Source: Lutibacter agarilyticus
GTDB lineage: Bacteria > Bacteroidota > Bacteroidia > Flavobacteriales > Flavobacteriaceae
DNA: 64,000 nucleotides
Assembly (NCBI RefSeq): GCF_900188235.1
Contig: NZ_FZNT01000002.1
Coordinates: 62,001-126,000 of the forward strand
Reading direction: 5' to 3'
Within the stretch, counting starts at the first letter, position 1. Each line of letters starts with the position of its first letter. Position numbers and translations under genes: made by a program. Shown here one piece after another: positions 26,054-29,298 of the stretch. The notes below the pieces were generated by a model, which was not told where the DNA came from, made no database searches, and saw only the letters and a program-made list of their open reading frames with translations.

Positions 26054-29000
26054 CTAACCAACTATGTTAATTATCTTCCCTGGAACTACAATTACTTTTT
26101 TAGGTGTTCTACCTTGTAATTGTTCTATTGTTTTTTCGTGTGCCATTGCCGCAGCTTCAATTTCATCTTTACTTAAATCTAAAGATAACTCCATAGTAAA
26201 ACGCATTTTACCATTAAATGAAACAGGATATACTTTACTACTCTCCACCAAATATTTAGGCTCAAAAATTGGAAAATCAGCCGTTGAAACCGAAGTTTTA
26301 TGTCCTAATTTAGCCCACAATTCTTCAGCAATATGCGGTGCATACGGTTCAATAATTATAGCTAAAGGTTCTAAAATAGCTCGCTTGTTACATTTTAACG
26401 CTGTTAACTCGTTAACGGCAATCATAAATGTTGAAACCGAAGTATTGAAAGAGAAATATGCAATATCTTCTTCAACCTTTTTAATGGTTTTATGTAAGGT
26501 TTTAAACTCTTCTTTTGTTGGCTCATCATCTGAAACTGAAAATTCACCATCAACAACATATAATTTCCACAGTTTTTTTAAGAAACTATACACTCCTGAA
26601 ATACCTGAAGTTTTCCAAGGTTTAGATTGCTCTAAAGGGCCTAAAAACATCTCAAACAAACGTAAACTATCAGCGCCGTATTCTTCACAAATTTGATCAG
26701 GATTTACCACATTGTATTTAGATTTCGACATTTTCTCTACCTCTCTACCAACAATGTATTTTCCGTCTTCCAACACAAACTCAGCATCTTTATATTCTGC
26801 TCGCCAGTTTTTAAACGCTTCAATATCTAATTCATCAGAAGTGTTTACAAAAGCAACATCTGAATGAATTGGATGTACTTTTAAATCTCCAATTAATCCT
26901 TTGGAAACAAATTTATTTTCACCTTCTACTCTATAAACAAAAGCAGAAGTTCCTGTAATCATCCCTTGGTTGATTAACTTTTTAGCATATTCATCAACAG
27001 GTACAATACCTTTATCAAATAAGAATTTTTGCCAAAAACGTGAATACAATAAATGCCCCGTTGCGTGCTCGCTACCACCAATATACAAATCTACATCTTG
27101 CCAATATTCAACCGCTTCTTTACTTACAAATTCCTCTGTATTTGTAGGATCCATATAACGGTTAAAGTAAGAAGAACTTCCTGCCCAACCTGGCATGGTA
27201 TTTAGTTCTAACGGACACACAGTTTCATTATCTATTAAATCGTTGCTAACAATTGTATTGGTTTTAGTATCCCAAGCCCAAACAGTTGCATTTCCTAAAG
27301 GTGGTTTTCCATCTTCAGTAGGTAAATATTTTTCAACTTCTGGTAACACAATTGGCAAATACGCTTTGTCAATCATTTGTGGCAATCCGTTTTTATAATA
27401 CACAGGAAAAGGTTCTCCCCAATAACGTTGACGACTAAAAACAGCATCACGTAAACGGTAGTTTATTTTCCCGTAACCAATTCCTTTCTCTTCAATTTCA
27501 TAAATGATTCTTTTCATCGCTTTTTTATACGTTAAGCCATTTAAAAAATCAGAATTTGCTATTTTAACACCTTCTTTTGCAGAACAAGCTTCTTCAGAAA
27601 TATCAACACCTTCAAAAATGTTTGGTATTTCCAATCCGAAATGATTTGCAAATGCATAATCACGTTCATCTCCACAAGGAACCGCCATTACAGCACCTGT
27701 TCCGTAACCTGCCAACACATAATCTCCAATCCATATTTGTACTTTTTTACCCGTAAAAGGGTGCAAAGCATACGCACCTGTAAACACACCCGAAATGGTT
27801 TTAACATCGGCCATACGCTCTAATTCACTACGTTTTGCAGTTGCTTTCTGGTATGCTTCAACCGCATCTTTTTGTGCTGCAGTCGTAATTTTTGAAACTA
27901 GTTCGTGTTCTGGAGCTAAGGTCATAAAACTTACCCCGTAAATGGTATCAGGGCGTGTTGTGAAAACTGAAATTTCATATTCCGAACTATTTGCAGAAAT
28001 TGTTTCATTTTTCCTTTCAACCTTTGGTGGTACTGTTGGAAATTGCAAGGCATAATCTATATTAGACATTACAATATTTATGTTTTCTAAAACTTCTTCT
28101 TTAGAAAAACGCTTTACACTAAAACCTTCACTTTCAAAATATGCAGTTCTTACAGCTTCATCCTCTTTTCCTGAAAATTCAATAATTATTTTTTTAGTCA
28201 AGCATACAAAATCTACCAAAAAAGTACCAATGGTATATTTTGCTCTAAACTTCGATTTTGTTTTTTTCTTTCTTAATTCGTTCCATAACAACTCTTCTTC
28301 TTTAGTTGAAGTTGCACGTTTTTCTTTCAGCGCTTCAATTTCTTTTAATGAAAAACTTACTTTTTTACTTTCAGAAATAGCCTCTGACAACACTTTAAAA
28401 GAAACCATTGCACCTTCTGAACGACCAATCCAGTAGGTTTGCGAATCTTTCAACGGTTGTGGCCAATCAATTTTATCTAACCCGTCTAATAAACGTTGCG
28501 CGTACGCAGTAATTCGCATACTCCATTGCATCATTTTTTTACGAACCACAGGATGACCTCCACGTTCTGAAACACCATTTACAATTTCATCGTTTGCCAA
28601 TACGGTTCCTAAAGCAGGGCACCAATTTACCTCAGTTTCTGATAAAAAAGTCAAACGGTATTTTAACAATATATGTTGTTGCGCTTCTTCTGAAAAACCA
28701 TTCCATTCTTCCGCAGAAAAAACAGTAATTTCATCGTCACAAACAGCCTGCATCGTTGCATTTCCTTCTACTTCAAAAATTGAAATTAAGGTTGAAATAT
28801 CTTCAGCTTTATCGCTTGTTTTATTGTACCAAGAATTGAACAATTGAATAAAAATCCACTGTGTCCATTTATAATAACTAGGATCAGAAGTTCGCACTTC
28901 ACGAGACCAATCAAACGAAAAACCAATTTTATCCAATTGTTTTCTGTAAGTTTTAATATTGGAAGCCGTAGTAATTGCTGGGTGTTGCCCTGTTTGAATA

Positions 29001-29266
29001 GCATATTGCTCTGCAGGCAATCCAAAAGAATCGTACCCTTGTGGATGCATTACATTAAAACCTTTATGACGTTTGTAACGCGCATAAATATCAGAAGCAA
29101 TATAACCTAGCGGATGCCCAACATGTAGCCCGGCACCTGACGGGTAAGGAAACATATCTAACACAAAAAACTTTGGTTTATCTGATTTATTTTCGGCTTT
29201 AAACGTTTGGTTATCTGCCCAATATTGTTGCCATTTGGCTTCTATCTCTCTAAAATTATAATCCAT
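26054..29266 (-). CDS. leuS: Leucine--tRNA ligase with an embedded DUF559 domain
   Basis: LeuS charges tRNA-Leu and edits mischarged amino acids. From ATG 29266 the protein has 1070 residues, over 100 more than the about 930-950 I expect in this phylum. Motifs: HVGH (48-51), VNWCPALGTVLANDE (about 213-227), FTTRPDTIYG of the CP1 editing domain (about 435-444), and KMSKS in the C-terminal third. The excess is an insert at about residues 293-430, between the GRSEGA segment and the editing domain, containing a DUF559-like domain. A longer frame could start at a TTG at 29293, but that codon overlaps the -7 promoter box. Confidence 0.96.
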   Translation of the reverse strand: MDYNFREIEAKWQQYWADNQTFKAENKSDKPKFFVLDMFPYPSGAGLHVGHPLGYIASDIYARYKRHKGFNVMHPQGYDSFGLPAEQYAIQTGQHPAITTASNIKTYRKQLDKIGFSFDWSREVRTSDPSYYKWTQWIFIQLFNSWYNKTSDKAEDISTLISIFEVEGNATMQAVCDDEITVFSAEEWNGFSEEAQQHILLKYRLTFLSETEVNWCPALGTVLANDEIVNGVSERGGHPVVRKKMMQWSMRITAYAQRLLDGLDKIDWPQPLKDSQTYWIGRSEGAMVSFKVLSEAISESKKVSFSLKEIEALKEKRATSTKEEELLWNELRKKKTKSKFRAKYTIGTFLVDFVCLTKKIIIEFSGKEDEAVRTAYFESEGFSVKRFSKEEVLENINIVMSNIDYALQFPTVPPKVERKNETISANSSEYEISVFTTRPDTIYGVSFMTLAPEHELVSKITTAAQKDAVEAYQKATAKRSELERMADVKTISGVFTGAYALHPFTGKKVQIWIGDYVLAGYGTGAVMAVPCGDERDYAFANHFGLEIPNIFEGVDISEEACSAKEGVKIANSDFLNGLTYKKAMKRIIYEIEEKGIGYGKINYRLRDAVFSRQRYWGEPFPVYYKNGLPQMIDKAYLPIVLPEVEKYLPTEDGKPPLGNATVWAWDTKTNTIVSNDLIDNETVCPLELNTMPGWAGSSSYFNRYMDPTNTEEFVSKEAVEYWQDVDLYIGGSEHATGHLLYSRFWQKFLFDKGIVPVDEYAKKLINQGMITGTSAFVYRVEGENKFVSKGLIGDLKVHPIHSDVAFVNTSDELDIEAFKNWRAEYKDAEFVLEDGKYIVGREVEKMSKSKYNVVNPDQICEEYGADSLRLFEMFLGPLEQSKPWKTSGISGVYSFLKKLWKLYVVDGEFSVSDDEPTKEEFKTLHKTIKKVEEDIAYFSFNTSVSTFMIAVNELTALKCNKRAILEPLAIIIEPYAPHIAEELWAKLGHKTSVSTADFPIFEPKYLVESSKVYPVSFNGKMRFTMELSLDLSKDEIEAAAMAHEKTIEQLQGRTPKKVIVVPGKIINIVG
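27977..28390 (-). other. DUF559 (Vsr-like nuclease fold) insert inside leuS
   Basis: The core (28058-28297, about 80 residues) reads LLWNELRKKK, KFRAKYTIGTFLVDFVCL, KKIIIEFSG, then FESEGFSVKRFSKEEVL, the recognisable DUF559 order. The Asp of VDF and the Glu of IIEF are kept. The usual DG after the Glu is SG and the expected His is absent, so nuclease activity is doubtful. A lysine/glutamate-rich linker precedes it. The frame is open and continuous with LeuS on both sides. Confidence 0.8.
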
Positions 29267-29290
29267 GGTCGCTTTCAAATTTTGAAAGCG

Positions 29291-29298
29291 CAAAGTTA
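29291..29298 (-). promoter_or_regulatory. -7 box of leuS
   Basis: The minus strand reads TAACTTTG, 24 nt before the chosen ATG. It contains the alternative TTG start, which supports the shorter LeuS. No -33 box is clear. Confidence 0.55.

Follow-up and report, generated by a model that had tools for sequence, protein, structure and literature searches.

Homing endonucleases cluster by site, and inteins that carry them are site-specific and occur in essential hosts; Vsr-like homing nucleases also occur in inteins. Rickettsia palindromic elements are hairpin repeats that sit within the reading frames of housekeeping genes and are translated with them. The ShiLan domain is a non-splicing homing insert in phage methylases, with an HNH nuclease hidden in another frame (PMC11855218). 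Here we describe an insert carrying a DUF559 domain in the leucyl-tRNA synthetase (LeuRS) of Lutibacter agarilyticus (Flavobacteriaceae, Bacteroidota), encoded in the window, the whole stretch of 64,000 nucleotides analysed (contig NZ_FZNT01000002.1, positions 62,001 to 126,000). Sequence comparisons suggest, with a probability that we put at about 0.7, that this insert is a domesticated, nuclease-dead descendant of a small, non-splicing mobile element that inserts into important genes without breaking their frame.

The usual expectation is that mobile elements keep clear of essential genes or are spliced out of them. The nuclease element considered here seems to live in frame within LeuRS, isoleucyl-tRNA synthetase (IleRS), MetH, RecG and others, and its residence in frame in essential enzymes would therefore make careless loss costly and have its expression guaranteed by the host.

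The insert in leucyl-tRNA synthetase

The leuS gene lies on the minus strand, with the following features.

26054..29266, minus strand: leuS, leucyl-tRNA synthetase, 1070 residues from the likely ATG (29266); open frame with Pfam matches tRNA-synt_1, tRNA-synt_1_2 and Anticodon_1
27977..28390, minus strand: in-frame insert of 138 residues (302-439) at the junction of the catalytic core and the CP1 editing domain; empty relatives have a linker of 14-16 residues
28046..28327, minus strand: DUF559 domain of the decayed type, residues 323-416 (PF04480, E 1.1e-18), in a clade shared with decayed inserts of other genera
27497..27994, minus strand: CP1 editing domain, residues 434-599 (PF13603, E 2.8e-51), overlapping the insert, with the bounds given above, at its last residues
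28361..28390, minus strand: peptide LSEAISESKK, a possible eroded remnant of a 5' terminal repeat, from comparison by eye with the loci L061-L065 and L070; intact relatives have LSPALSEGKG

The LeuRS frame (26054-29293) is open over 1079 codons. An earlier note on this DNA, made from the sequence alone, had given LeuRS about 1070 residues and had placed within it a DUF559 insert of about 138 residues, translated together with the enzyme, between the segment GRSEGA and the CP1 editing domain. All of this is borne out: the ATG at 29266 opens one unbroken frame of 1070 residues with neither frameshift nor stop, the insert occupies residues 302-439 in the position described, and PF04480 scores 67.5 bits in the whole protein and 72.3 bits in the insert alone (E 3.5e-20), far above its cut-off of 20.6. 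The order of the catalytic, editing and anticodon-binding Pfam domains in the protein (PF00133, PF13603, PF08264) is that of bacterial LeuRS. In an alignment with LeuRS of T. thermophilus (1h3n) the insertion point falls at about residues 237-239, just ahead of the editing domain. A sequence comparison with solved structures, at E up to 1, yields a single relative, 3hrl_A, which is named 'Endonuclease-Like Protein' (E 3e-12). Among the matches listed the closest named LeuRS is that of L. flavus (85%), and the window insert is the same as that of another locus of the genus (L055).

Several other identities were considered and rejected. A frameshifted or separate gene was rejected on the single open frame, and an intein on Pfam scans of LeuRS and of the insert (E up to 1), which return no intein family. 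A gene hidden in another frame was likewise rejected: over the insert, the sole other listed frame of at least 80 residues (28080-28436, plus strand) matches nothing in Pfam with an E value of 0.01 or less. An anti-phage system was rejected on the result of PADLOC, in which the window LeuRS and its insert are without a match, and an oddity confined to Lutibacter or to LeuRS on the occurrence of DUF559 inserts in other genera and hosts.

Kept and lost residues of the nuclease domain

LeuRS inserts that occupy the same site and keep the nuclease motif EVDG..H are present in related Bacteroidota; Cellulophaga baltica and Leeuwenhoekiella marinoflava are examples of species with an intact-type LeuRS. 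Inserts were assigned by motif, and those with H or Y after E-[VILF]-D-[GE] were counted as intact. Common to the 43 intact LeuRS inserts are a Gln-His pair, an Asp, a Glu-x-Asp-Gly motif, a near-invariant His (97%) and a further Asp. In the decayed clade the first Asp and the Glu are kept, the first His is replaced by Tyr and the second Asp mostly by Ser (80%), the second His is gone and the last Asp has become Glu. The corresponding residues of the window copy, from the comparison of inserts, are these.

28235..28237, minus strand: Y353; His in all 43 intact LeuRS inserts
28211..28213, minus strand: D361; Asp kept in 43/43 intact and 30/30 decayed inserts
28178..28180, minus strand: E372; Glu kept in 100% of intact and 96% of decayed inserts
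28172..28174, minus strand: S374; Asp (of EVDG) in intact inserts, the subsequent His (97% of intact) being absent from the window copy
28157..28159, minus strand: E379; Asp in all 43 intact inserts

The retention of Asp (D361) and Glu (E372) and the loss of the DG (S374) and His positions agree with what the earlier note described; comparison with the 43 intact inserts adds the replacement of a second invariant His by Y353 and of a further invariant Asp by E379. The losses at S374 and the following His arise partly by construction, because the same motif defined the intact class; the changes at Y353 and E379 are independent of that motif.

In the DUF559 tree (137 rows, 116 columns, identical inserts merged) all decayed LeuRS inserts but one form a single clade with a support of 100, which is seen in Lutibacter, Polaribacter and Tenacibaculum; the exception, L120, is an independently decayed copy and was left outside the decayed set in the selection and inverted-repeat tests. 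The ratio of nonsynonymous to synonymous substitution rates (dN/dS) of the decayed inserts has a median of 0.28 and is below 1 in all 248 pairs (30 rows), compared with 0.11 for the LeuRS core. For intact inserts the median is 0.20 against 0.08 for the core, from 17 pairs only, 15 of them among six Lutibacter rows. The duplicates L003, L128 and L129 and ten duplicate intact rows were removed before the selection test, and identical inserts were merged for the inverted-repeat test. The window domain is most likely dead as a nuclease and kept as a fold, because invariant residues have been lost yet purifying selection persists. The decayed domain is also more basic than the intact one (mean net charge +1.5 against -2.3), and given this charge it may possibly form a new tRNA contact.

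Terminal repeats and their dispersal

Many intact inserts end in peptides such as LSPTLSEGKG, FPKGEE, PPSGARG and LPSGEG. At the DNA level each end forms a GC-rich hairpin that bears a pyrimidine tail, the two ends being inverted copies that are translated with the host; the 5' end of the L118 insert reads CTCACCCCCAACCCCTCTCCAGTGGAGAGGGGAG. The inverted-repeat score exceeds that of shuffled sequences (p<0.05) in 32 of the 43 distinct intact LeuRS inserts and in 0/30 decayed ones, the window's included. End hairpins show the same division, being found at the 5' end of 31/43 intact and 1/30 decayed inserts and at the 3' end of 27/43 and 4/30, respectively. When set against mismatched pairs, the inverted-repeat test is only moderately strong (24/113 at or above the 99th percentile of the control; median 15 against 10), since repeats of this kind are also present in the flanks that serve as control. 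Having no significant terminal repeats, the window insert would be a descendant of a mobile element and not an intact member.

The hairpin core CCCCNAAGGGG is clearly dispersed in four of the nine carrier genomes checked, with solo copies in frame among its occurrences: G310 has 50 hits against 0 for a reversed-pattern control, G023 44 against 0, G050 44 against 2 and G125 27 against 0. The window's genome has it once (control 0). A looser hairpin pattern lies above its control in all ten genomes, modestly so (43 against 40 in G176, for example). Contexts were inspected in 20 stretches from G125 and G023. In G125, 13 of 23 hits fall inside open frames of at least 100 codons and 10 outside, some of the 13 being near frame starts and possibly upstream of the true start. 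One pair of hits lies in an IleRS frame (L214), identified by likeness to L045, the other hosts of hits in these two genomes being named by eye only, and four inverted pairs in G125 are 60-120 bases apart. All six hits inspected in G023 are outside open frames of at least 100 codons.

A different arrangement is seen at L225, L226 and L227 of G023, in which the two hairpins of a pair, 119-197 bases apart, have one orientation and not the inverted one; these pairs lie outside long frames and share flanks.

Patchy occurrence at the LeuRS site

Of 38 Lutibacter genomes, 30 had their LeuRS locus classed: 8 as decayed, 7 as intact, 13 as empty, with a linker of 14-15 residues, and 2 as having unrelated short insertions. 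One locus, L060, was missed by the text pattern used to collect LeuRS rows and stands outside the LeuRS tree and the selection, synonymous-rate and repeat tests; the DUF559 tree makes it decayed. In a draw of 75 genomes of the family, 73 have a LeuRS match, and the DUF559 part is covered in at least five (G000, G002, G023, G036, G050). Of 28 linkers inspected among the new loci of this draw, 21 have 15 residues and three hold DUF559, that of G002 with the decayed motif. On a FastTree tree of 118 LeuRS cores, with the insert removed, presence and absence require at least 23 changes, in a sample biased in that up to 80 loci are the best matches to the window protein and the rest were found through DUF559, some genomes being entered twice. 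The earlier note had left it between a sporadic and a fixed insert; the family draw and the tree point to a sporadic one. Two loci (L191, L199), by eye, keep both ends of the insert and have lost its middle.

The same linker carries other short repeat-like insertions in L082, L083, L190, L194, L198, L206, L275 and L278, with peptides such as VIASETKQS, VIPAEAGIS, VTSSAVEK and HSELVSES, which we take to be repeats; with such varied insertions the site seems open to repeats of several families. LeuRS is also hypervariable between species in a second stretch, which runs from LINQGM (residue 773) towards KMSKS. It has 86 distinct versions; 33 are short (at most 43 residues, mostly 23), and the 53 long ones fall into 21 sequence clusters (E <= 1e-4). 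The public leuS record of L287 (G061) shifts frame after HSVIRKK, possibly through a sequencing error.

DUF559 within other proteins

DUF559 is found in 143 of 299 genomes of the family, many of the matches listed lying in frames of more than 1000 codons, and a profile of the LeuRS inserts matches 162/395 genomes of the phylum (E <= 1e-12, free-standing genes counted too). Among the frames inspected are MetH, RecG, IleRS and others, besides LeuRS genes that carry the insert at the same site. Host naming by NCBIfam and Pfam gives IleRS (L045, and L109 by Pfam), RecG (L049) and chorismate synthase (L119). A UvrD-type helicase (L111) is nearest to RecB-like models, below their cut-offs, and a mutase of the methylmalonyl-CoA-mutase type (L235) is nearest to IcmF, its cut frame scoring just below the model cut-off. 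In the MetH of L010, DUF559 lies between the two B12-binding domains; another MetH (L006) has two copies, which the tree places as sisters (support 95). Restriction hosts comprise type ISP enzymes (L112, L122), HsdR (L084, L115, L257) and an Eco57I-type methylase (L117), and fusions are seen with HisD (L127), HemD (L038) and a peptidase M23 (L250). LeuRS itself has a second site with DUF559, ahead of ELSTMPGWAG or ELTTMPGWAG, in three loci of relatives from the same taxonomic class (L233, L244, L247), and there three loci of Flavobacteriaceae (L009, L022, L031) have a solo repeat. The window insert is, as judged from these sequence matches, one case of a pattern that runs through the phylum and takes in at least ten families of host protein.

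In the tree, DUF559 domains mostly group by host gene and site. Some copies group with those of other hosts: the IleRS copy L045 with RecG, one LeuRS copy with MetH, and the IleRS copy L086, which shares its position with L109, with HisD. This suggests rare jumps between host genes.

The genome of the window has three DUF559 matches, the LeuRS insert and two short genes on another contig. These two, L001 and L002 on contig C16, are free-standing and separated by about 3 kb. L002 has HTPNPSQEGT, a repeat-like peptide, at the end of its frame, and an inverted repeat shared between its flanks. N-terminal DUF559 fusions of HemD-like proteins occur in several genera (L008, L018, L020, L026, L036, L037, L038, L040, L044), L038 alone being named by Pfam and the rest by likeness, and their nine DUF559 domains group together (support 99).

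Origin of the insert

The intact element consists of a stretch that codes for a DUF559 nuclease and has no stop in the host frame, with a GC-rich hairpin repeat at either end in inverted orientation. It sits in frame in linkers of important proteins and is translated with the host enzyme, of which it makes an additional domain, having no splicing domain of its own, possibly with an additional internal start. On the mechanism we propose, the nuclease would cut alleles or repeat sites that lack the element, which would be copied in by repair, that is, by homing, with rare jumps to new genes; solo repeats would be remnants or landing sites. In an ancestor of the lineage now found in Lutibacter, Polaribacter and Tenacibaculum the presumed active site would have been lost and the repeats would have decayed, the fold persisting at the editing-domain hinge of LeuRS as an accessory domain that is conserved, where it is most likely a structural or RNA-contacting part. 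The intact relatives in frame, the repeats, their dispersal in some genomes, the loss of invariant residues and the purifying selection are observed; cutting, homing and present role are deduced from these patterns. The earlier note had offered a neutral relic of a mobile domain as one possibility. A mobile origin is now well supported by intact relatives at the same site with repeat ends and the nuclease motif; neutrality fits poorly with a decayed type that is conserved across genera at dN/dS well below 1.

Some results weigh against this origin or leave it less firm. Purifying selection on the decayed domain may reflect a need to fold alone. Of the intact inserts, 11/43 have no significant inverted repeat, and the hairpin core is near its control in G176 (14 against 11) and weak in G215 (16 against 6), G248 (6 against 2), G134 (7 against 3) and G131 (4 against 0). 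The DUF559 tree is short on columns and weak at most forks, with 22 of its 134 inner branches starred. The synonymous rate (dS) of intact Lutibacter inserts hints at their recent exchange, with a mean of 0.40 against 0.60-0.77 in six flanking windows, and is lower in 12/15 pairs, which are not independent; that of decayed Lutibacter inserts is also slightly low (0.76 against 0.72-1.00, below the flank mean in 16/21 pairs), and that of the decayed Polaribacter group (0.98) is not below its flanks.

The proteins that move the repeats could be others than the nuclease. Y1 transposases, present in six of the ten genomes checked and with ten matches in G125, could move such repeats, and repetitive extragenic palindromic (REP) sequences within genes are known (PMC3733652); the repeats would then be ordinary REP-like elements moved by a Y1 transposase (REP-associated tyrosine transposase, RAYT), with DUF559 hitch-hiking and its nuclease taking no part in movement. 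We think this quite improbable. Y1_Tnp (PF01797) has 0 matches in the window's genome and in G131, G023 and G176, the last three of which have intact DUF559 inserts, G023 together with 44 hairpin hits, though a transposase may have been lost. Moreover, a bare hitch-hiker is not expected to stay intact, as the intact inserts do at a median dN/dS of 0.20 (17 pairs), and the inserts mostly cluster by site, like homing endonucleases. A doubtful but more serious candidate, compatible with a mobile origin, makes the window copy a passively decaying passenger, kept only for the rarity of its precise removal and the harm that an unfolded insert would do. The insert does evolve faster than the LeuRS core (0.28 against 0.11), and relatives with an empty linker exist (13/30 Lutibacter loci); the decayed type, however, conserves residues of its own, with Y58 and F91 (insert numbering) supplanting other invariant residues and K81, Q122 and F123 conserved in this type only.

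That the decayed clade is one group with a support of 100, in at least three genera, would also be expected if a cellular nuclease domain, in no way mobile, had fused with LeuRS long ago and been passed on by vertical descent as an accessory domain. This is very unlikely in view of the sporadic presence (at least 5/73 family genomes) with its 23 or more changes on the tree, the many unrelated hosts, the terminal repeats and the remnants L191 and L199 with both ends and no middle, and it is already hard to hold given intact, repeat-bounded copies at the same site. Slighter still is the chance that the fused nuclease is a guard, with which an important enzyme acts against phages or against damage to itself. 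An endonuclease-like solved relative of DUF559 and the restriction enzymes among the hosts could be read in this way, but neither the window LeuRS nor its insert has a match in PADLOC, many hosts are metabolic and their sites varied, solo repeats without a nuclease occupy the same sites, and the nuclease motif is lost in the window copy.

If the domesticated mobile element is accepted as the origin of the insert, the window LeuRS may be an end point at which the nuclease dies and its fold becomes a conserved domain at the editing hinge, and the element would be a source of new domains in essential proteins. Beyond this locus, we lean, with a little better than even confidence, towards the view that Bacteroidota host an undescribed class of selfish element, a hairpin-bounded nuclease that spreads by in-frame insertion into linkers of essential enzymes and is expressed, unspliced, within them. 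On this view, an aminoacyl-tRNA synthetase has on at least one occasion gained a fixed domain under selection from dead copies of the element. Because one genus has intact, decayed and empty alleles, the gain of domains by essential enzymes becomes directly testable.

Comparison with known systems

In the open-licence literature of PubMed Central, which includes no bioRxiv and few subscription papers, we found no description of DUF559 with leucyl-tRNA synthetase, nor, in the titles and opening lines of abstracts listed, of the element itself or of an inserted domain in CP1 of LeuRS in Bacteroidetes. The DUF559 proteins (PF04480; NCBIfam PRK09767; PDB 3hrl), which we take to belong to the Vsr-like PD-(D/E)XK fold class, resemble the insert in their profile match, in the conserved Asp and Glu and in having an endonuclease-like solved relative; the window copy differs in that four invariant or near-invariant residues are changed or absent and in being embedded in LeuRS and not free-standing. 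Inteins with homing endonucleases are alike in their clustering at specific sites and in their essential hosts, whereas the LeuRS insert has no splicing domain detectable by Pfam and should therefore stay in the mature enzyme. DUF559 does lie within an intein-like stretch in L123 (G125), where PF14890 matches weakly, below its cut-off; the protein looks phage-related by eye.

The ShiLan domain (PMC11855218) is likewise a passable in-frame insert in a protein gene, with a nuclease inside and no known intein or intron; in the element described here, however, DUF559 is read in the host's own frame, the terminal repeats are hairpins and the genes are cellular. REP-RAYT systems (REPtrons; PMC3733652) share a gene flanked by hairpin repeats and the dispersal of solo repeats, but here DUF559 takes the place of Y1_Tnp and some carriers have no Y1_Tnp match at all. 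Rickettsia palindromic elements and in-frame REPs (for the latter, PMC3733652) have in common with the present family translated hairpin repeats that keep the frame of the housekeeping genes in which they lie. To this arrangement, on which the likeness to the Rickettsia elements is drawn, the DUF559 family adds a long form, in which a nuclease lies between two inverted copies of the repeat.
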